Below the pieces are notes generated by a model, which saw only the letters and a list, made by a program, of their open reading frames with translations, did not search any database and had not been told where the DNA came from. The translations under genes and the position numbers were made by a program. A stretch of DNA of 36,895 nucleotides from Oscillospiraceae bacterium (lineage in GTDB: Bacteria > Bacillota > Clostridia > Oscillospirales > Ruminococcaceae). Below are positions 1,621 to 20,503 of the stretch, piece by piece (positions within the stretch are counted from its first letter, which is position 1; the number at the start of each line of letters is the position of its first letter). Location of the stretch: NCBI GenBank assembly GCA_022508965.1, contig JAFLUD010000010.1:1-36895 (forward strand), written 5' to 3'.

Positions 1621-2835
1621 TTGGACTTGAATCAGCTCATTGAGGGGGCTTCCTCGGGTTCGACACTGAGGCTGCCCTCGGGGGAATTTGAGGGTCCCTT
1701 CGTTATCAGCAAGCCGCTGCACCTTATCGGAAACAACACCACGCTTTGGGCGAAGAACGGCGCGGTCCTCAAAATAAATTCCAACGGCGTCGTTATCGAG
1801 AATCTTCGCGTGGAGCTTACCGACGGGGACGTCTCGGATACGGCGGTGGCGTCGAATTTTCTCGCTGCCGTCAAGAACGTCGAGATCCTCGGCGGAGTGA
1901 GCGGGTTCGGTTCGGAGGACGGCTGCTTTGACGTTCCGAGAACAATAGAACTCGGAGAGTTTCGCGCGGAGGACGAGAATTCGTTTATTTTGAGCGTGAA
2001 CGTTCCCGAGAAAACAGAGATATTCTGTAATATGCGCGAGGTGGCGTTCTCCCCTGCTGTTTTAAGCGCGGGGAGGAACGATATTACCGTTACCGTTTCG
2101 GGGATATCGGCGCAGACGCTTCTTTACGCGGAGATCATGTTTAAATCCGCGTTTACAAGACGGGTGTACCTTACGGGGAAGCCGAAAACCGACGCGGAGG
2201 CTGCGAGCTTCAGGCAAGTTTATTCCGCTCCTGTGAGAAAGTCCGCGAAAAAGGCTAAGGCGACTGCACCGCAGACGGACGTTATTTCCCTTTCGCCACC
2301 GCAGGCGGAGGGCTCCGCGAGGATCGATATGACGAGAGGTTTGCGGACTGCACTTGCGCCTTACATAGGCAGCAGCTTTTCGGTTTATTTCAGCTGTGAA
2401 AAGTCGCGCAACGCAGACATAGATCCTTACGTTTTTCTGCTCGACAGAGACGGGAGGGCGCTTAGCGACAACAGTCTTATATTCTTCGGGAACGAACGTT
2501 CGGAAAACGGCGAGGTGCGTTACTTCCCCGACGACGGTCACATTGACATAGATCTCGCGGCGGTGGATTATCGGGTGGAAAAAATCGTGCTGGCTTACGC
2601 GGTCTATGCTGCGGACGCTTTCAACAACTTTTCCATAGCGAAAAATCCCAAGATATCAATTCGCACCGACAGCGAACGCATTTCTTTCGCAATGGACGGG
2701 CTGTCGGAGGAATCGGCGATCGTTGCCGCGGAGATATACCTTTACAAAGGCGAATGGAAAATTTCCGCGGTCGGCGCGGGCTACAACGGCGGCGTGGCAA
2801 GGCTGTGCGAGAGCTACGGCATTGAAGTGGAATAA
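1621..2835 (+). CDS. Two-domain protein: beta-helix-like N-terminus fused to a C-terminal TerD domain
   Basis: A 404-residue protein about twice the length of a plain TerD protein. Residues 1-110 look like the start of a right-handed parallel beta-helix (pectin-lyase fold): regularly spaced short strands in GSTLRLPSGEFEGPFVISK, HLIGNNTTLWAKNG and GVVIENLRVEL. A middle stretch (111-190) is beta-rich and unassigned, and a Lys/Ala/Pro-rich linker spans about 203-230. Residues 233-404 are a TerD domain with DIDPYVFLLDRDGRALSDN, and YKGEWKISAVGAGYNGG near the end. The acidic Ca2+ loop of ordinary TerD is shortened here (NERSENGEVRYFPDDGH), so metal binding may differ. The start is a TTG 9 bases after AAAGGGGG. 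It lies within the Ter operon, 42 bases before the YceG-like gene. Function is unknown; a scaffold or surface-recognition role is only a guess. Confidence 0.85.
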   Translation: MDLNQLIEGASSGSTLRLPSGEFEGPFVISKPLHLIGNNTTLWAKNGAVLKINSNGVVIENLRVELTDGDVSDTAVASNFLAAVKNVEILGGVSGFGSEDGCFDVPRTIELGEFRAEDENSFILSVNVPEKTEIFCNMREVAFSPAVLSAGRNDITVTVSGISAQTLLYAEIMFKSAFTRRVYLTGKPKTDAEAASFRQVYSAPVRKSAKKAKATAPQTDVISLSPPQAEGSARIDMTRGLRTALAPYIGSSFSVYFSCEKSRNADIDPYVFLLDRDGRALSDNSLIFFGNERSENGEVRYFPDDGHIDIDLAAVDYRVEKIVLAYAVYAADAFNNFSIAKNPKISIRTDSERISFAMDGLSEESAIVAAEIYLYKGEWKISAVGAGYNGGVARLCESYGIEVE

Positions 2836-2877
2836 AATGCCGAAGATCACCGCCAATAAATTTGAGGAGTTGAGAAA

Positions 2878-5064
2878 ATGGCTCAGCAGGAGTTTTTGAG
2901 ATATGTCGGGTATGATAACCCCGACAATTTTAGAAGCTTGCTGATCGAACAATTTACCGCGGCTAAGAAAAACGGACTGTTCTTCAAAGAACGGCTGCCT
3001 ATGGCGACTACCGACGAGATTGCCGCTGCCTCGGCTTACACCGCTTCCAGCTTTGAAAACGCCGAGGACATCAAGAGAGGTCTGGACAGCTGGCTTCACG
3101 CCGCGAACGTTCCCTGCGACAGCGAAAAGATCGCCGAGATAATGGCTATGGCGGTCGCGGACTGCGGCGCTAACAAGAAAAATACCTATTTCGTGCTGCT
3201 GTGCTGGCTGATAAAATATCTCGGCACGCGCCCGGGGTCGGTTTTGTACATCGGCGCGGCTACGCTTCGCGAGCTGTATTTTCTTTGTATGATGAACGCG
3301 GCGGGCGTTAAGATCACACTGGTGAGCTACGGGCTGGACGCGGATTTTTCTAAGCTCGCGTGCAAGGATGTTATCACCGTTAAAAACGGGAGCAATTCCG
3401 CGCCGTTACAGATAGATTTCGGGAAGATCGATCTCTCGCGGGAGGCTAAGCTCTCGCAGATGCGCGCCGAAAGCGAGCGCGTGGATGGTCTTGTAAAGCG
3501 GCTTTCCACCACGGCGGCGGGTATGTTCGAGGATATTCTTAAGGACAGGCGGTCGCGTGTTATCGGTGGCGGCGGCGTGTTCACAGAGGACGGGGAGATA
3601 CCCGTGTACTGCGCGGCGCTTATCGGCTATGACGAGGAAGACGTTTATACGAATATGCTCGTGAAATTCAAGGAAAGCTTCGCGGGGCTTAAAAAGCAGC
3701 TGATATTCATCGAAAAGCCGATGGAAAACCCAAATGCCGACGAGGTAAAGGCTCTGGGGAGCGCTCCGAGGACGAGCACTGCCGAAATGATCGACGCGCT
3801 GGCTATGATGATAAACTTAAGCGGCGACAGGACCCGCACGGCGCTTGCTCAGCGGACGCTGCGCGAGATCCTTTCGGAGCTGAATACGGGAAATCAGACG
3901 GTGGTTCTCAATTACGCGAACAAGCTGATCACCTGGCTTTACCGCTGCACGCAAGCGCGCAAATATTCCGTGAAATATGAGGATATCCCGGTTATTCTTT
4001 ACTACGGGGATATCTCGCAGTCGGAGATGTATTTTCTGAATTTCATGTCGCGGTGCGGGTTTGACGTGGTGTATATTTCCCCGAACAAAGCGAATTTCGA
4101 TCTTGTGGTCGATAAAAATATCGGCGGACGGATGCAGATATTTGAGCTTCCGCAAAGCAAAAACAGCGGCGAATACCCGAAGAGCGCCGTTAAAATGAAG
4201 GTGGCTACCGTCGCCTACTCGGCGGAGCGGGATCTGGACACCATGCTCTACGGCGGCGATACGGGGATCTACCGCAGCTTTCAGTTCCCAAACAGCCAAT
4301 CGCTTACGCTGAAAACCACCTTCGAGGAGATCGCTATTCTCTGGAAGCAGGAAGCGCGCTTCAGGCAGGGTTTTACTACGGCGGGGAATCTGGTTTCGAT
4401 CCCGAATATCTTCGCTAAGATAAGCGGCGTTGAAAACGGAAATCTGGGCAACTACTGGGAGGATATTCGGCAGAAGCTCACTCCCGAGACTATTCTCGTT
4501 GTCAAAAAACCCAATCCCAAAAGCGACGGGCAGACGGGCATCGATCTATCCGCATACAGGCAATTCTACCGAAACGGAAAGATCGACACCGAGAAGCTCA
4601 AGGCTTCTACCCTTAACAAGTACAGCTATCTTCCCGACAGGATCCAGGATATGCTGTTCTATAAGCTCCAGGAGGCCGCCTCGTCGGGGTATATTAAGCT
4701 ATCCGACGACAACCTGATGTGCAGCGTGCTGCACTTCGGTATGAATCTCGACAAGAATTTCCTCAAGATAATTCAGAGATTCGATTTTACGCGCACTATC
4801 CCGAAGCTCATATATATCGACGCCGTGGAGGATACGTTCTCACTGGAAGAATGCATTCAGATAGTTCTGTGCAACCTTATCGGCTTCGACGTTCTCGTTT
4901 ATACGCCTACGGGCTATAAAAACCTCGAAACGTTCGTATCTTCGGACGCATTCGAGGAGCATATCATGGATCAATTTTTGTACAACACAGAGGTTCCGAA
5001 ATTCAAAATACCCTCTGAACCTAAGAACAGCGGTTTTTTCGGAAAGCTGTTCGGAAAACACTAA
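2878..5064 (+). CDS. YceG-like Ter-module protein (putative component of a 'biosynthetic module')
   Basis: A 728-residue soluble protein. I assign it to the YceG family from its position between TerD and TelA genes, as in Bacillus yceCDEFGH, and from motifs such as PVILYYGDISQSEMYFLNFM followed by GFDVVYISPNK (residues 371-403). A related motif occurs earlier, PGSVLYIGAATLRELYFLCM followed by GVKITLVSYG (119-152), suggesting an internal duplication of an alpha/beta unit. Bacillus YceG is shorter, about 540 residues from memory. The C-terminal third (about 520-690) carries EDTFSLEECIQIVLCNLIGFD, broken here after EEC by nothing unusual, and ends in a basic tail. Comparative genomics by others places the family with genes for a nucleoside-like metabolite; no reaction has been shown. 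The start follows GAGGAG by 8 bases. The next gene is 33 bases downstream. Confidence 0.75.
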   Translation: MAQQEFLRYVGYDNPDNFRSLLIEQFTAAKKNGLFFKERLPMATTDEIAAASAYTASSFENAEDIKRGLDSWLHAANVPCDSEKIAEIMAMAVADCGANKKNTYFVLLCWLIKYLGTRPGSVLYIGAATLRELYFLCMMNAAGVKITLVSYGLDADFSKLACKDVITVKNGSNSAPLQIDFGKIDLSREAKLSQMRAESERVDGLVKRLSTTAAGMFEDILKDRRSRVIGGGGVFTEDGEIPVYCAALIGYDEEDVYTNMLVKFKESFAGLKKQLIFIEKPMENPNADEVKALGSAPRTSTAEMIDALAMMINLSGDRTRTALAQRTLREILSELNTGNQTVVLNYANKLITWLYRCTQARKYSVKYEDIPVILYYGDISQSEMYFLNFMSRCGFDVVYISPNKANFDLVVDKNIGGRMQIFELPQSKNSGEYPKSAVKMKVATVAYSAERDLDTMLYGGDTGIYRSFQFPNSQSLTLKTTFEEIAILWKQEARFRQGFTTAGNLVSIPNIFAKISGVENGNLGNYWEDIRQKLTPETILVVKKPNPKSDGQTGIDLSAYRQFYRNGKIDTEKLKASTLNKYSYLPDRIQDMLFYKLQEAASSGYIKLSDDNLMCSVLHFGMNLDKNFLKIIQRFDFTRTIPKLIYIDAVEDTFSLEECIQIVLCNLIGFDVLVYTPTGYKNLETFVSSDAFEEHIMDQFLYNTEVPKFKIPSEPKNSGFFGKLFGKH

Positions 5065-5097: not shown

Positions 5098-6255
5098 ATG
5101 GGACTTCAATTCACACCCGGCGCCGCTGCGGCTCAGCAGGCTAATATGGAGGTTGAGACTACCGCTGCTGTGCGTTCTGACGCTGCTCTCGAGGCTAAGC
5201 TCGAAGAGGCTAAGAACTTCAATATCATGGTAAAGACCGATGAGATCAAGCAGCAGCTCGCTACCAGCAAGGAAATTGATCAGCTGGTTTCTACCATTAA
5301 CGTAAACGATTCCTCTACTATCGTTAAGTTCGGCGCAGAGGCTGCCGATCAGATCTCCCAGGCTTCGGATCAGGTCCTCAATTCTATGAGCATCCAGCAG
5401 ATCAACGATACGGGCGTTATGCTTAAAAACCTCGCCGCTATCATGGAGCAGTTCGACGCTAAAGAACTCGAGGACAAGCCCGGGCTGTTCGCTAAAATGA
5501 AGAAGAATATCGAGAAGATCCTCAGCAAGTATGATACTATGGGCAAGGAGATCGACAAGATCTACGTTCAGCTGAAAAAGTATGAGGTTGAGATCGAGCA
5601 GTCCAACCAGAAGCTCGGCAATATGTACGACGCTAACATCGGCTATTATCAGCAGCTTCTCAAGTATATCATGGCAGGCGAGCAGGCAGTTGCGGAGCTT
5701 GATACCTATATTGAGGATTACAAGAAAAAGGTTGAGGCCGAGCCTGACAACGGCACTATCCGCATGGATCTGTCCAATCTTCAGCAGATGCGCGAGATAC
5801 TCGATCAGCGCGTTATGGACCTTAAGATCGCGGAGAACGTTGCGCTTCAGACGGTTCCCATGCTGAAAACTATGGAATACTCCAACCTCAATCTGGTTCG
5901 CAAGATCAACTCCGCGTTCATCATCACTATGCCTGTATTCAAGCAGTCCCTCGCGCAGGCTATCATGCTCAAGCGCCAGAGAATCCAGGCGGAATCGCTT
6001 GCGGCTCTCGACGAGAAGACCAACGAAATGCTCATTAAGAACGCACAGAATACCGTAGAGCAGTCTAAGATGGTTGCGGGTATGTCGGCGAATTCTTCCA
6101 TTAAGGTTGAGACCCTCCAGCAGACCTGGCAGACTATCGTAAACGGTATCGACGAGGTTCAGGCTATTCAGGACGAGGCTCGCGCTAAGCGCAAGGAGGA
6201 CGCTAAGGCTCTTGAGGATATCAAGGCGGACTATAAGAAGAGAATGAAGGCATGA
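5098..6255 (+). CDS. TelA family toxic anion resistance protein (YceH-like)
   Basis: A 385-residue protein of the TelA/KlaA family, the usual length. It is largely helical with long charged heptad stretches, for example about 125-165 (AIMEQFDAKELEDK onwards) and 180-240, and the family core FIITMPVFKQSLAQAIMLKR followed by QRIQAESLAAL (about 278-305). A typical C-terminal end, VETLQQTWQTIVNGIDEVQ, is followed by a Lys/Glu-rich coiled tail. Members accompany TerD proteins in tellurite-resistance and stress operons and are thought to act at the cytoplasmic face of the membrane; the mechanism is unknown. AGAAAGGAAA precedes the ATG. This is the last gene of the operon, ending 45 bases before a strong terminator. 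A 515-residue open frame on the other strand is only a mirror of its codon use. Confidence 0.92.
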   Translation: MGLQFTPGAAAAQQANMEVETTAAVRSDAALEAKLEEAKNFNIMVKTDEIKQQLATSKEIDQLVSTINVNDSSTIVKFGAEAADQISQASDQVLNSMSIQQINDTGVMLKNLAAIMEQFDAKELEDKPGLFAKMKKNIEKILSKYDTMGKEIDKIYVQLKKYEVEIEQSNQKLGNMYDANIGYYQQLLKYIMAGEQAVAELDTYIEDYKKKVEAEPDNGTIRMDLSNLQQMREILDQRVMDLKIAENVALQTVPMLKTMEYSNLNLVRKINSAFIITMPVFKQSLAQAIMLKRQRIQAESLAALDEKTNEMLIKNAQNTVEQSKMVAGMSANSSIKVETLQQTWQTIVNGIDEVQAIQDEARAKRKEDAKALEDIKADYKKRMKA

Positions 6256-14692: not shown

Positions 14693-14738
14693 GAATAATG
14701 TATTATTATAAATATGTCTAAAATTGCAAAGGGAATTT

Positions 14739-15482
14739 ATGGAAAAGGATATAAAGCAACAGATAATTTACGGCAAAAACGCCGTTTTGGAGGCGCTGAA
14801 CTCCGACCGCGAGATCGACACGGTCTTTGTTTTGAAGGGCGCGGCGCCAAGTAACATCGTCGCTGCCGCAAAAAAGCGCGGCGTTGTCGTCAAGGACGTG
14901 AGCGAGGAAAAGCTATCGGCTATGACGGGAAATTCAAAGCACGGCGGGGTCGCCGCGGAGCTTTGTTTGTGCGAATACGCCGAGCTTACGGATATTCTCG
15001 CGGAGGCTGAAAAAAAGGGCAAGCCGCCTTTTATCATAATCGCCGACGAGATCGCCGATCCGCACAACCTGGGAGCGATTCTCCGAACTGCCGAAGCGGC
15101 GGGCGCGGACGGCGTTATAATCCCGAAGAGGCGTTCTGCGTCGCTGAATGCCACGGTGTTCAAGACCAGCGCGGGCGCGGCTGCTTGGATAAAGGTCGCG
15201 AGGGTTGCCAATCTGGTGGACACCATCAAGACACTCAAAAAACACGGCGTCTGGGTTTACGGTATGGAGGCGGACGGAGTTCCCTACGACATAACCGATC
15301 TTTCGGGGGCGGTCGCTATCGTGGTCGGCTCGGAGGGCTTCGGGCTGGGGAGACTGATCCGCGAAAACTGCGACGAGGTGCTCTCGCTTCCGATGAGCGG
15401 GAGGATTAATTCCCTTAACGCCTCGGTATCAGCGGGGATACTGATGTACGAGGTCGTAAGGCAGCGTAGCGCTAAGGGGTAG
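14739..15482 (+). CDS. rlmB: TrmH/SpoU family rRNA 2'-O-methyltransferase (RlmB-like)
   Basis: A 247-residue SPOUT methyltransferase that methylates a ribose 2'-OH using S-adenosylmethionine; the RlmB group modifies G2251 of 23S rRNA. An N-terminal substrate-binding domain (IIYGKNAVLEAL, then about 75 residues) precedes the knot domain. Motif 1 is IADEIADPHNLGAILRTAEA, motif 2 is IVVGSEGFGLGRLIRENCD, and motif 3 is LPMSGRINSLNASVSAGILM. I use ATG 14739, preceded by AAAGGGA; an upstream TTG at 14724 is inside that site. It is the first gene of a long operon concerned with RNA modification and ribosome maturation. The exact target base is inferred from the family. Confidence 0.92.
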   Translation: MEKDIKQQIIYGKNAVLEALNSDREIDTVFVLKGAAPSNIVAAAKKRGVVVKDVSEEKLSAMTGNSKHGGVAAELCLCEYAELTDILAEAEKKGKPPFIIIADEIADPHNLGAILRTAEAAGADGVIIPKRRSASLNATVFKTSAGAAAWIKVARVANLVDTIKTLKKHGVWVYGMEADGVPYDITDLSGAVAIVVGSEGFGLGRLIRENCDEVLSLPMSGRINSLNASVSAGILMYEVVRQRSAKG

Positions 15483-15532: not shown

Positions 15533-18500
15533 ATGTCCGACGATAGATACAGTATAGACGATATTCTCAAGGAGATCGACACAAAGCGTTATCAGGACGG
15601 CGACGACACCGCAAGCACCGATGACGACGAAATTGTCACCTCGGACTACAAGCCCGAGAGCGTTACCGAAATTCTTGACGGCGACGCTATAAACCGCGCG
15701 CTTGCGGGTTCACAGAAGAAAAAGCCCGACCTTTCGGTGACGCAGGTCATAAATTCCTTAGACAGAAAAAAGGGGCGCTCGGCGCGGCAGCTTACCGAGG
15801 AAGAGTCGGATAAGCGCAGGAACGCGGATATCTCCAAGGCTTTCGGGAACAAAAAGAAGCCGAAGCCCCAGCGCGAGAAGCTCTCGGCAAGGCAGCTGAC
15901 CGAGGAGGAGACCGACGAGCGGCGTTCTCTTGAGATCAGCCGTGCGGCGGATATCAAGAAATGGGAGAAGCTGCGCGAGGAAGAGAGTTCCGAGGACGAG
16001 TACGTTTATGAGGGCGACTTTGAGGGCGACTTTGAGGGTGATCTCGAGGGGAATTTCGAGGATAGCACAGAGCTTGTTACTCCCGAGAGCGAATATGTAC
16101 GACCCTACCGCAAGCCCGAGGTTTCCGGGGCGGACGACGACATCATATTCCACACACGCGGCGACCTTGTTACCACCGACACCGCGCAGATCCGCAAGCA
16201 GAAAAAGATCGACGATATCAACCGCGCGCTTCTTAAGATCGACAGCGAGGCGGATTCCCCGGACGATATGCTAAACGCTCTCAATCCCATGGATTCCCGC
16301 GAAAAGGCTGTGGAGATCATAAAGGGGAATGAGGACGACAACACCGATACCCTGGCGGTTGCAGGAAACGATCTTAAGCGCATCGCAAAGGGCGAGGAGC
16401 GCATTAAGGAATATCAGCCCGCGAAAAAACGCGAGGCGGACGAGGTTTTGTTCGCTCCGCCGGGAGCCGTTCCGGGGGCGGCGGGTATGCAAAGCCCCGT
16501 GTTCCCTGCGGAGATACACGTCGGCGAAACGATCGTTGAAGCTCTCAACAAGAAAATAAGCGAGCAGTCTTCCCCGAGGACCGAGGAGGAGAGCGTTCCC
16601 CAAACAACCGAAGAACCTGCGGCTTTTGCGGCGCGCAGTCCCGAGGAGGAAGAGGCTCTCGAAAGAATAAGACAGGCGGACGAGCTTGCTCAGAAAAAGA
16701 AGCGCAAGATCGCGAACTTTATTCTGGATACTCCGGATACGGAGGAGCTGGAGCCTGCCGTTTCCGCGCCTGCGGACGACTATTCGGAGGACTATGACGA
16801 CGAGGACGACGAGCCTATCGACCTCGACGACGAGAACGTTATCCGCGACCGCCTGGAGCGCGCTTCCAAGGGGCTTTTGAGCAGACTGCTGATCCTTGCG
16901 GGGCTTTTTGCGGTGACGCTTTTCGTTACTCTCGCGAACAAATTCAACATGGAGCTTGGCGGGCTTAACAAGGTCATCAGCCTGCGCGTTGCTCCCGATA
17001 ACTACCTATACACTCACCTTACAGTCGGCATACTTTCATTCGCGGCCTGCTCGTCGGTTATTTCCAACGGATTCTCAAGGCTGCTGAAGCTGCGTCCCGA
17101 CGGAGATACGCTTTGCGCGTTCGCTCACATGGGGGCGCTCGCGGCGCTTATTCCCTACCTCATAAACGCGGAATACATTCAGCGCGGACGCGCGCACGTT
17201 TATCTGCTGGTCTCGCTGGGAGCTTTACTGTTCAACACGCTGTCAAAGATATGCACCGTAAAGACCGCGCAGAAGAACTTCGCGTTCACCTTCGGCGGAA
17301 GAGCGAAGTACTTTATCGAGCGCTGCGAGAGAACCAGCGCGGACAAGCTCGCTAAGGGCGCTGTTTCGGGGATCCCCGCGGTCGGAGCTATGCGAAAGAC
17401 CGAAATTCTCTGCGACTTTATCGTTTCTACCTACTGTGAGGACGCTTCGGACAGGCTTTCGAGAAAGATCGTTCCCGCGGCTGCCGCAGCGGCGGTAGTC
17501 GGAGCTATCGCGGCGTTCTTCGCGAGCGCGGGAGAGACGGATATGGTTATAAACCGCGTGAACTGGGCGGTTACCGTTATGACCGCGATATTCGCGCTGG
17601 GAGCGTCGTTCTCGGGGTCTATGACCGTTACGCTGCCTTTACTGTTCGCTTCACTCAAAAACAACCGCCGCGGCTCGGCTATTCTCGGATATAACGCCGC
17701 TACCGAGCTTTCGGAGCTTAACGCCGTTCTTCTGGAGGCTAAGACGCTGTTCCCCGCGGATTCCGTTAAGATCACCAACATCTGCGGCTATGACAAGCCC
17801 AAAAACCGCGGCGAGGGCAAGATAAACATCGACGAAGCCATTATCTATGCGGCTTCGCTGGCGGTGGCTTCCGACAGCGTGCTTGCGGACGCGTTCTTCG
17901 GAATGCTAAACAACAAGCGCGAGCTTCTGAAGCCCGTGTCGGGGTGCGTTTATGAGAATAATCTCGGCGTGATGGGCTGGATCGACAGGAGACGCGTTCT
18001 GTTGGGTAACAGACGCCACATGAAGTCCCACGAAATAACTGTTCCCAATATGAAAAAGGAATCGGCGGCTAACGTCAACAACGACGAGGTCATCTACCTC
18101 GCGGTGGGCGGCGAGGTTTGCCTGCTGTTTTTCGTGGAGCTTTCGGCGAATCCCGCGGTAAAGCTGAACGTTCAGCGGCTTACAAAGCGCGATGTTTCGC
18201 TGGTTATCAGAACCGTTGACGGCATGATGACGGAGGCGGAGATCTCCGAGCTGTTTGACATCGATTCCGAAAAGGTGAAGATCCTGCCGTTTGAGGCGCA
18301 TGAGACCTTTGCGGAAAACACTAAGTTCGTTTCGTCGGGAAGCGCTTCGGCTTCCTGCATCGGCACCTTCTCCTCGTTTGCGGGGGCGGTCTGCACGGCG
18401 CGGCTGCTGCGCGACAGGACCGTTTTGAGCTGCATTGTTCAGCTTAGCTGTATCGGGCTTGGGGTGCTGCTGGCTATCATATTCGCGCTGTTTACTCAGT

Positions 18501-18589
18501 TCGGTTTCTTTGACGCGCTGTATCTGCTGCTCTTTAACATCGCAACGGGGGCTATTACTCTCGGCGCGCAGCTGTTTAAACGCCTATGA
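15533..18589 (+). CDS. Giant membrane protein: acidic disordered N-terminus plus degenerate P-type (P1B-like) ATPase
   Basis: 1018 residues. Residues 1-445 are highly charged, low in hydrophobics and probably disordered. They include two copies of SARQLTEEE(S/T)D(K/E)RR (83-96 and 118-131), an EGDF/EGDL run (160-175) and an Asp/Glu cluster (415-435). From 447 there are about eight membrane segments (447-467, 494-512, 525-545, 555-573, 645-665, 676-704, 965-988, 992-1012). Residues 712-950 align by eye with the P/N cytoplasmic domains of heavy-metal ATPases: NRRGSAILGYNAATELSELNAVLL is followed by EAKTLFP exactly where DKTGTLT should be. The CPC metal site reads SGS (694-696), TGDN reads TVDG, and no GDGxND or TGES is present. 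It is therefore probably not a pump but a sensor, scaffold or regulator. Start after AAGGAGAG. It overlaps tadA by 4 bases. Confidence 0.75.
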   Translation: MSDDRYSIDDILKEIDTKRYQDGDDTASTDDDEIVTSDYKPESVTEILDGDAINRALAGSQKKKPDLSVTQVINSLDRKKGRSARQLTEEESDKRRNADISKAFGNKKKPKPQREKLSARQLTEEETDERRSLEISRAADIKKWEKLREEESSEDEYVYEGDFEGDFEGDLEGNFEDSTELVTPESEYVRPYRKPEVSGADDDIIFHTRGDLVTTDTAQIRKQKKIDDINRALLKIDSEADSPDDMLNALNPMDSREKAVEIIKGNEDDNTDTLAVAGNDLKRIAKGEERIKEYQPAKKREADEVLFAPPGAVPGAAGMQSPVFPAEIHVGETIVEALNKKISEQSSPRTEEESVPQTTEEPAAFAARSPEEEEALERIRQADELAQKKKRKIANFILDTPDTEELEPAVSAPADDYSEDYDDEDDEPIDLDDENVIRDRLERASKGLLSRLLILAGLFAVTLFVTLANKFNMELGGLNKVISLRVAPDNYLYTHLTVGILSFAACSSVISNGFSRLLKLRPDGDTLCAFAHMGALAALIPYLINAEYIQRGRAHVYLLVSLGALLFNTLSKICTVKTAQKNFAFTFGGRAKYFIERCERTSADKLAKGAVSGIPAVGAMRKTEILCDFIVSTYCEDASDRLSRKIVPAAAAAAVVGAIAAFFASAGETDMVINRVNWAVTVMTAIFALGASFSGSMTVTLPLLFASLKNNRRGSAILGYNAATELSELNAVLLEAKTLFPADSVKITNICGYDKPKNRGEGKINIDEAIIYAASLAVASDSVLADAFFGMLNNKRELLKPVSGCVYENNLGVMGWIDRRRVLLGNRRHMKSHEITVPNMKKESAANVNNDEVIYLAVGGEVCLLFFVELSANPAVKLNVQRLTKRDVSLVIRTVDGMMTEAEISELFDIDSEKVKILPFEAHETFAENTKFVSSGSASASCIGTFSSFAGAVCTARLLRDRTVLSCIVQLSCIGLGVLLAIIFALFTQFGFFDALYLLLFNIATGAITLGAQLFKRL

Positions 18590-19044
18590 CGCTCGACGAG
18601 GAATTTATGGAAAAGGCGCTCGCGCTTGCGCGAAAGGCTTACGAGCTGGGGGAAATCCCGGTGGGGGCTATCGTTGTTACAAAGGACGGCGAGATCGTCG
18701 GAGAGGGCTACAATCAGCGTGAGACGCTCTGCTCGCCTACCGCGCACGCGGAGATGCTCGCTATCGAGATGGCTTCGCAAAAGCTCAAGGCGCGGAGGCT
18801 CTCTGACTGCACCATCTATGTCACCTTAGAGCCTTGCCCGATGTGCGCGGGCGCTATTATGAACGCTCATCTTAAGCGGCTGGTTTACGGCGCTTTCGAC
18901 GATAAAAACGGCGCGTGCGCGTCGGTGGTCACTTTGTTCGATGAGAAATTCACGCATATCCCCATGGTGAGGAGCCGCGTTCTCGAACGGCGCTGCGGCG
19001 ATATTTTAAGCGAGTTCTTTAAGGAGATCCGCGAAAATAAATGA
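18586..19044 (+). CDS. tadA: tRNA-specific adenosine deaminase
   Basis: A 152-residue zinc deaminase that converts adenosine 34 of tRNA-Arg(ACG) to inosine. The zinc and catalytic residues are intact: HAE (54-56) and PCPMC (83-87), with the family motifs GEIPVGAIVV and MNAHLKRLVYGAFD. The length is typical. The ATG overlaps the stop of the large membrane protein by 4 bases (ATGA), indicating translational coupling. Downstream the flippase gene begins 17 bases later. Its place among rlmB, rimM and trmD fits an RNA-modification operon. Confidence 0.96.
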   Translation: MTLDEEFMEKALALARKAYELGEIPVGAIVVTKDGEIVGEGYNQRETLCSPTAHAEMLAIEMASQKLKARRLSDCTIYVTLEPCPMCAGAIMNAHLKRLVYGAFDDKNGACASVVTLFDEKFTHIPMVRSRVLERRCGDILSEFFKEIRENK

Positions 19045-19060
19045 CATTAGGAATCATTCT

Positions 19061-20503
19061 ATGAATAAATACCGTACTCTGGCAAGCAATATGCTGATCC
19101 TCGCTGTCGGTCAGCTCAGCTCTAAGCTGCTTGTCTATGTGATGCTGAGGTTCTACACCGACATACTCGGAACAGACGGTTACGGCGAAATGACGAATAT
19201 CGTCACCGCCTGCGACCTGTTGATTTCCGTGGTGTCGCTGTCTATCTCAAGCGGCGTGCTGAGATTTGCTCTGGAAAAAAGCAACGACGGAAAAATGGTC
19301 TTTTCTATCGGCATCAACACTATTCTCGTAAACTCGCTGTTTTTCCTCTGCACTGTCCCGCTTATCGGTATGATTCCTTTGTTTCGCGGGTATGAGTGGA
19401 TGATCTTCATCTACGTTATTCTCGGCTGTATCAAGGACGTGTGCGCTATTTATGTGCGCTCGCGGTATTCTGTGACGCTGTTCGCGGTGGACGGTATCGT
19501 TACCACAGTTTCTACGGTGGTGTACAACCTGCTGTTCCTCGGAGTATTCCACTTCGGAGTGCCGGGGTATGTGTTCTCGATAGTTCTGGGAAACGTTACC
19601 TCGATAGTGTTCCTCAACATCACCACAAAGCTGTTTATGGACTACCGTCCGATCAGGAACGACAAGACGCTGAGGGTGTCGATGCTGCGGTACTGTATTC
19701 CGCTTATGCCGACTACTATCATGTGGTGGATCATCAGCTTTTCCGATCTGTATATGATCACCGCGTTTATCGGTGAGGACGCGAACGGTCTTTACGCGTT
19801 TGCGTATAAGTTCCCGAACCTTGCTATTATGGTCATGGGTATCTTTTCGCAGGCGTGGAGAATGTCTGCTATCACGGAGAGGAATTCCCGTACTACCTCG
19901 AATTTCTATTCCAACACCTTCAGCATGATGCAGACTATCATGTTCTTGGCGAGCGGCGGTATTATGCTGGTTTTGAGACCGATCATAATGCCGTTCTTCG
20001 GGTCGGAGGATTTTCAGCCTGCTTACATTTACGTTCCGCTGCTGCTGGCGGCGGTCATCTTCCAGAGCTTTGACAACTTCTTAGCTTCCATTTACGAGGC
20101 GGCGCAGAAAACTACCCACTCGATGATCTCATCGGGGATAGGCGCGGTCTCCAATATCGTTCTCAACATCGTTCTTATCTACGCTTTCGGGATAATGGGC
20201 GCGGCTATCGCTACCGTTAGCAGCTATGTTATCGTGTTTGTGTACAGAATTTTCGACACCAAAAAATATCTCTATATGAAGGTATACTGGGCGAAGATAT
20301 TCGTCAATCTGGCGCTTTTGGCGGTTATGGCGTGGTCGATCATCTTCCTGGAATACGGCACGCTTCAGAACGTCATAAACGCGGTCGTATTCCTTGTTAT
20401 CGCGGCGCTTAACTTCCAGTCCTGCGTGCAGGCGGTGAAGCTGGTGCTTCATAAGAGCAAGAATAATTCCCGGGAAAATCAGGATAAGGAAACCAACGTA
20501 TGA
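19061..20503 (+). CDS. Polysaccharide/oligosaccharide flippase family membrane protein (Wzx/MurJ-like MOP superfamily)
   Basis: 480 residues with 12-14 predicted membrane segments throughout and a short basic C-terminal tail (VLHKSKNNSRENQDKE). The start MNKYRTLASNMLILAVGQLSSK, followed by LRFYTDILGTDGYGEM, is typical of polysaccharide biosynthesis (RfbX/Wzx) exporters of the MOP superfamily, which flip lipid-linked sugars. Charged residues within the membrane part (RSRYS, around the EDANGLYAFAYKFP motif) fit the family. No glycosyltransferase genes are nearby, so the substrate (capsule, teichoic acid, lipid II or spore polysaccharide) cannot be told. It overlaps rimM by 4 bases, which is an odd partner and probably reflects operon packing only. 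Confidence 0.88.
   Translation: MNKYRTLASNMLILAVGQLSSKLLVYVMLRFYTDILGTDGYGEMTNIVTACDLLISVVSLSISSGVLRFALEKSNDGKMVFSIGINTILVNSLFFLCTVPLIGMIPLFRGYEWMIFIYVILGCIKDVCAIYVRSRYSVTLFAVDGIVTTVSTVVYNLLFLGVFHFGVPGYVFSIVLGNVTSIVFLNITTKLFMDYRPIRNDKTLRVSMLRYCIPLMPTTIMWWIISFSDLYMITAFIGEDANGLYAFAYKFPNLAIMVMGIFSQAWRMSAITERNSRTTSNFYSNTFSMMQTIMFLASGGIMLVLRPIIMPFFGSEDFQPAYIYVPLLLAAVIFQSFDNFLASIYEAAQKTTHSMISSGIGAVSNIVLNIVLIYAFGIMGAAIATVSSYVIVFVYRIFDTKKYLYMKVYWAKIFVNLALLAVMAWSIIFLEYGTLQNVINAVVFLVIAALNFQSCVQAVKLVLHKSKNNSRENQDKETNV

Follow-up and report, generated by a model that had tools for sequence, protein, structure and literature searches.

Much is known about the pseudoenzymes among kinases and proteases. Among P-type ATPases, the P1B heavy-metal pumps, with CopA (PDB 3rfu and 4bbj), ATP7B (7si3), and a ZntA-type pump (4umv) as structural representatives, are recognized by four motifs: DKTGT with its phosphorylated Asp, the Mg-binding loop GDGxND, the actuator loop TGES, and a CPC-type metal site located in the helix that precedes the P domain. 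A degenerate human P-type protein, ERMA/TMEM94, has also been described; it carries DKQGI and GSSANL, has no TGES, and is reported to transport Mg2+ (PMC13322241). The group FUPA24 (CtpH/CtpI) comprises P-type homologs with a very large N-terminal segment and is listed as functionally uncharacterized in that classification (PMC3573892).

The window analyzed here, meaning the whole 36,895-nucleotide stretch of DNA, contains a complete ORF on the plus strand (positions 15533 to 18589) that begins with ATG and encodes a protein of 1,018 amino acids. This protein is part of one family of P1B homologs, found across an order, whose members are without the catalytic motifs for phosphorylation, Mg binding, dephosphorylation, and metal binding and have kept the eight-helix fold. 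The fold is known, and the family itself falls outside the functional P1B pumps. No paper on the family was found in the full-text literature searched, a coverage without most subscription journals.

Homology to P1B ATPases and loss of the catalytic motifs

Searched alone, the window protein resembled P1B ATPases weakly. The CopA model NF007952 aligned with residues 639 to 919 (E value, 3.7e-8) and TIGR01525 gave an E value of 1.1e-7, both far under their curated cut-offs, and PDB entry 3rfu matched at 6.4e-5. The Pfam scan returned no matches, and no NCBIfam model scored above its curated cut-off. The P1B layout proposed in the sequence-only reading gained strong support when 55 family members were used: the CopA model matched 43 and TIGR01525 matched 40 of them, the family HMM found CopA (3rfu) at 8e-35, and the profile-profile alignment between the family and P1B ATPases extended over 546 columns (E value, 8e-36), with the GN..M and YLAVGGE pieces of that proposal also falling into register. 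A structure prediction was run as a check on the same proposal, and the modeled core had a P-type fold whose best structural matches were P1B pumps.

The P1B-like core, defined from the profile alignment and the predicted structure, occupies residues 432 to 1018 (positions 16826 to 18586, plus strand). Eight long helical stretches were predicted in it, at about residues 434 to 470, 488 to 518, 524 to 544, 558 to 586, 638 to 667, 672 to 713, 946 to 986, and 995 to 1014, and these are read as the putative counterparts of the eight membrane-spanning helices that P1B ATPases have. Homology spanned both the membrane part and the P- and N-domain headpiece (residues 721 to 945; 17693 to 18367, plus strand). 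Of the actuator (A) domain, a remnant was left at about residues 587 to 637 (17291 to 17443, plus strand), from which the TGES stretch is absent.

At the place of DKTGT, the profile alignment set residues 735 to 741, EAKTLFP (17735 to 17755, plus strand), and bore out the earlier placement of Glu735 on the phosphorylated Asp. The idea that this position is never Asp did not hold. Across 56 aligned sequences, column 735 carried D in 14, E in 9, T in 8, S in 7, R in 7, G in 4, N in 3, and other residues in the remainder; it is KTGT, along with GDGxND, that is invariably missing. F740 (49/56) and P741 (44/56) make up a new conserved motif at the former active site. In about half of the order members the columns from 736 to 738 onward (window positions 17738 to 17746) read DxD[IV]FP; 27 of the 56 sequences have D736 and 26 have D738. 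This resembles the HAD motif DxD, and a HAD phosphatase instead of an ATPase was considered; it was thought unlikely because the GDGxND stretch is deleted.

Three of the 82 homologous ORFs were true pumps with DKTGT, GDGxND, TGES, and CPC. Neither DKTGT nor GDGxND occurred in any of the 79 non-pump ORFs, five of which were shorter than 600 residues and some of these cut; the proposed check for close homologs with an intact DKTGT was thus negative within this set. The GDGxND stretch is deleted in the profile alignment and the family lacks the stretch that would contain TGES, in agreement with the earlier failure to find either motif. Five near relatives had GDGKVN, in a loop away from the GDGxND place, and TGEP was present in the A-remnant region of L041 only, of the 79 ORFs, which was taken as chance. 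The CPC replacement had been read as SGS; the residues that align are S692, F693, and S694 (17606 to 17614, plus strand), two positions away, but the site has no Cys either way. Cys was found at column 692 in 2/56 and at column 694 in 5/56 sequences. TVDG (residues 894 to 897; 18212 to 18223, plus strand) did align with TGDN as had been claimed. Its Asp, D896, is kept in 54/56 sequences, and the flanking G and N are not kept in the window protein. The ATP site of the N domain was also altered, with SDSV in place of SEHP and N810 as the first residue of GxG (G in 22/56), so that only the second G is kept. G812 and G825 were invariant (56/56).

The window protein has none of DKTGT, GDGxND, TGES, and CPC. 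Judged by these motifs, the family almost certainly consists of pseudo-ATPases, and its proteins would be unable to pump by the P-type cycle. The earlier view of a pseudo-transporter is well supported by the P-type fold of the model and the absence of DKTGT from all 79 ORFs.

Distribution, selection, and gene neighborhood

Of 100 related genomes, all from one order, 92 gave a match in a search with the single sequence. The match in G058 was a true pump, leaving a family count of 91/100 that includes a contig-end fragment in G008. A profile search added G075 and G089, G087 probably has a family gene cut by the contig end behind rlmB, and uncertain fragments were seen in G003 and G085. No family gene was seen in G037, G064, G092, or G058, genomes that are 55 to 83% complete. 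Among the matches listed for 398 genomes of the phylum, those covering the HMM at full length were seven from the same order; the best E values were 1.4e-103 or better inside the order and 3e-39 or weaker outside it, where the matches listed mostly covered positions 204 to 485. In 118 genomes of the class, the full-length matches were the four from the order; the other 114 comprised 54 listed as other orders and 60, of kinship not shown, without a match at 1e-30. Named loci (80 kept of 130 found) came from uncultured Oscillospiraceae, Ruminococcaceae, Ruminiclostridium, and Clostridia bins. These records point to Oscillospirales as the host order, and the few records whose titles disagree (Bacteroides, Roseburia, and Eubacterium) are probably mislabeled bins. 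An engine-less member of a transporter superfamily that nearly an entire order of gut-type bacteria has retained is unusual, and the distribution suggests that one bacterial order has a membrane protein that is nearly universal in it and unannotated.

In a tree with several long branches, built from 18 family members, 19 intact pumps, and one odd protein, all 18 family members fell in one clade with support of 100/100. Within the genus (25 rows), conservation was 0.76 for the headpiece, 0.74 each for helices 1 to 4 and the A remnant, and 0.62 and 0.59 for helix regions 5 to 6 and 7 to 8, the less conserved parts of the core. Ratios of dN to dS were obtained for 12 close pairs using a Nei-Gojobori type count in our own script, a few of the pairs being less sure with a dS of 1 or more. 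Estimates for the 575-codon core were possible in 11 of 12 pairs and ranged from 0.034 to 0.149; the ratio was 0.015 to 0.092 for the P/N part in 10 of 12 and 0.05 to 0.24 for the tails, whose evolution outpaces that of the core in most pairs. The P1B fold and the P/N headpiece have been kept under purifying selection.

In the window, the gene lies 50 bp downstream of rlmB (14724 to 15482, plus strand), which encodes the 23S rRNA G2251 2'-O-methyltransferase (TIGR00186; E value, 2e-72, above cut-off), and overlaps by 4 bases the following tadA ORF (18586 to 19044, plus strand), which matched the NCBIfam TadA model with an E value of 9.7e-43 and 145.8 bits, slightly below the cut-off of 150. 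Further downstream are rimM, trmD, and era, and the surroundings of translation genes claimed earlier are real in this genome. A polysaccharide-flippase-like gene (19061 to 20503; HfsF-like match, 2.4e-14, far under cut-off) sits among these translation genes, between tadA and rimM, and follows tadA in most loci of the genus.

Across the order, rlmB was directly upstream on the same strand in 47/49 loci outside the genus, at distances of −219 to +207 bp, and was absent from this position in L036 and L070; its presence upstream in L085 and L086 brings the count to 49/51. In the 80 named loci, rlmB was found within −300 to +400 bp in 68 and at 418 to 1244 bp in five, could not be seen in six truncated loci, and was absent in L136. 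L038 has a full rlmB (2569 to 3309) about 2.7 kb upstream and a partial copy (5715 to 6020) right before the family gene. The next commonest neighboring cluster was present in only 9/49 loci, and because no other neighbor exceeds this number, the pair of rlmB and the family gene has mostly been kept while its surroundings were rearranged. A physiological tie to tadA had been suggested from the 4-base overlap. The overlap is real, but the linkage is confined to near relatives, with tadA following the family gene in 30 of the 80 named loci and no tadA match in the order-level loci, and tadA was rejected as a partner outside this group; in two other named loci, L159 and L160, the tadA match lay over 4 kb from the gene. 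Across the order, the partner is rlmB. Any tie to translation rests on this adjacency, which could reflect just shared expression.

The N-terminal tail and its conserved peptide

Residues 1 to 445 (15533 to 16867, plus strand) form an N-terminal tail with 116 D/E against 67 K/R. It had been described as an acidic tail of this length, and it is net acidic but not a plain acidic chain, as short conserved motifs are present. From its composition the tail of the window protein is probably disordered, and by analogy with the P1B membrane layout it would be cytoplasmic. Tails in the family measured 16 to 613 residues before the first membrane helix (median, 301; n = 56), and 46/56 were net acidic. 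Two members from one family of the order (L053, 6233 to 7870, and L055, 5487 to 7121) are nearly without a tail and without the peptide described below, and offer a natural comparison for finding the partner of the tail.

Residues 6 to 15, YSIDDILKEI (15548 to 15577, plus strand), make up an order-wide motif resembling a docking peptide, with the consensus [FY]x[ILV][DE][DE]ILxE[FVI]; I11 and L12 were invariant in 28 full-length rows. The scan for it covered the first 120 residues and left out L053, L055, and L077 (shorter than 600 residues) and four cut genus rows; from L039, which is split by a stop, only the front piece was used. The strict pattern was present in all 26 genus members with a complete N terminus and in 20/46 distant tails, against a mean of 0.004 for shuffled tails (maximum, 1; 500 rounds). 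A relaxed pattern was found in 32/46 distant tails against 0.96 after shuffling (maximum, 5), and in 14/46 the peptide was unrecognizable even with this pattern. Only one of 795 other long ORFs in the loci carried it, namely, the front half of the split family member in L039. In a pattern scan of 59 genomes of the order, 25 had a match. Of 28 match places that were read, 14 looked like family tails from their context, with not each one aligned, one was an NKTGT protein, and 13 were in other frames. In the window genome, no other clear N terminus with the peptide was seen: matches near the front of a frame were in frames of 19 and 26 residues, and one (L208) lay 31 residues into a possibly coding, 150-residue reverse frame.

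Conserved islands of the tail within the genus (25 rows) were residues 6 to 14, 200 to 300, about 330 to 345, and 380 to 400. The mean majority fraction was 0.71 for residues 200 to 300 (16130 to 16432, plus strand) versus 0.41 for residues 41 to 200, and the former stretch could be a small module that folds or binds. A basic-hydrophobic island, KKKRKIANFIL, spans residues 388 to 398 (16694 to 16726, plus strand), with F396 invariant in 28 rows; K/R-rich, FVL-like pieces resembling it were noticed by eye in several other genera.

The NKTGT protein was found in G095 (L210, 3035 to 4924, minus strand, contig C9). This P1B-like protein of 629 amino acids has NKTGT for DKTGT, in the sequence SVLFNKTGTVTEG (Asp to Asn), and MTGDN, with no GDGxND and no TGES, and its N terminus contains YDLDDILREY. 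The preceding gene is presumably fructose-bisphosphate-aldolase-like. None of 97 genomes of the order held a close relative, the next best match being an intact pump with about 30% identity over part of the protein, and it is probably a second, separately derived pseudo-pump.

Possible roles and comparison with known systems

The scaffold, sensor, or tether role put forward in the sequence-only reading is plausible. We somewhat favor a role as a membrane-anchored scaffold or receptor, and the family protein was probably repurposed as a membrane tether that serves another task. The headpiece would serve as a binding module in which the old active site has given way to a new LFPxG(S/T)V motif. 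The long cytoplasmic tail would present the N-terminal peptide, which would dock a cytosolic partner and so tether it to the membrane, and expression with rlmB would set the protein to the level of a housekeeping gene. A role near ribosomes or in RNA processing is possible, and the adjacency to rlmB may only supply steady expression. Taken as a whole, the picture of an order-wide dead P1B pump as a housekeeping scaffold, with the chassis as anchor, the headpiece as binder, and a peptide on a long disordered leash that would recruit a partner in the cytosol, perhaps from the ribosome or RNA-processing machinery whose genes lie alongside, and with the leash as if added twice, is tentative and a little short of an even call. 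The NKTGT protein, which bears the same kind of N-terminal peptide, speaks for a scaffold; the faster evolution of the tails than the core in most pairs and the conservation of the membrane helices speak against it. Because the peptide is unrecognizable in 14/46 distant tails and two members are without a tail, tethering cannot be the whole function.

The main rival is an unusual transporter, a channel or pump that would rely on the P-type fold but not on the usual cycle, as proposed for ERMA/TMEM94. Loss of motifs is by itself no proof of lost transport, because this degenerate protein is reported to move Mg2+ with DKQGI, GSSANL, and no TGES (PMC13322241). The eight-helix fold is kept and helices 1 to 4 are conserved in the genus (0.74), but no metal-binding CPC is left, deletions have removed the TGES and GDGxND stretches, and helix regions 5 to 6 and 7 to 8 are the less conserved parts of the core within the genus (0.62 and 0.59). 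The residue at the DKTGT Asp also varies widely, whereas the Asp of ERMA is reported as kept and needed (PMC13322241). On balance a transporter is unlikely, with perhaps a minor share of the probability. Slightly less likely again is a membrane sensor, in which the headpiece would bind a nucleotide or another small ligand and signal via the tail. Such a sensor would fit a headpiece that is among the best-conserved parts (0.76), with a dN/dS of 0.015 to 0.092 in 10 of 12 pairs, invariant G812 and G825 (56/56), and D896 in 54/56 sequences, but with SEHP changed to SDSV and the first G of GxG lost (N810), ATP binding of the kind seen in P1B pumps is unlikely.

A decaying pump gene heading for loss is very improbable. 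The catalytic motifs are lost and in-frame stops lie in the matched stretch of three relatives (G014, G026, and G082), but the frame is open in nearly all genomes with a match, and neither a neutral dN/dS (0.03 to 0.15 in the core) nor frequent loss of the frame was seen. A new conserved LFP motif at the old active site and a single deep clade also argue against decay, as does the separate presence of two intact P1B pumps with DKTGT, GDGxND, TGES, and CPC in the window genome; decay was rejected on dN/dS, distribution, and the single clade. A fortuitous ordering of short motifs in a membrane protein unrelated to P1B ATPases, which would fit the lack of a Pfam match and of an NCBIfam model above its curated cut-off, has next to no probability and was rejected given the profile-profile E value of 8e-36 over 546 columns, the family HMM match to CopA at 8e-35, and best structural matches that were P1B pumps. 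The family makes it possible to test clearly if a P-type fold is able to act as a platform of a structural kind.

Set against described systems, the NKTGT protein of G095 is alike in being P1B-like, in having its catalytic Asp replaced, and in carrying the same kind of N-terminal peptide, but it keeps KTGT and TGDN and groups, on a long branch, with intact pumps. FUPA24 likewise combines P-type homology with a very large N-terminal segment; it differs in that, according to the classification, its C-terminal region contains the functional motifs (PMC3573892). ERMA/TMEM94 shares the P-type fold, a degenerate DKTGT and GDGxND, and the absence of TGES; it is eukaryotic, keeps its Asp (D427), and is reported to transport Mg2+ (PMC13322241), whereas the present family varies at that Asp and has the GDGxND stretch deleted. 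With the P1B heavy-metal ATPases, represented by CopA, ATP7B, and the ZntA type, the family has in common whole-length homology, eight helices, and the P/N headpiece. It is distinguished from them by the loss of DKTGT, GDGxND, TGES, and CPC, a reduced actuator domain, a long tail with a docking-like peptide, and a position after rlmB.
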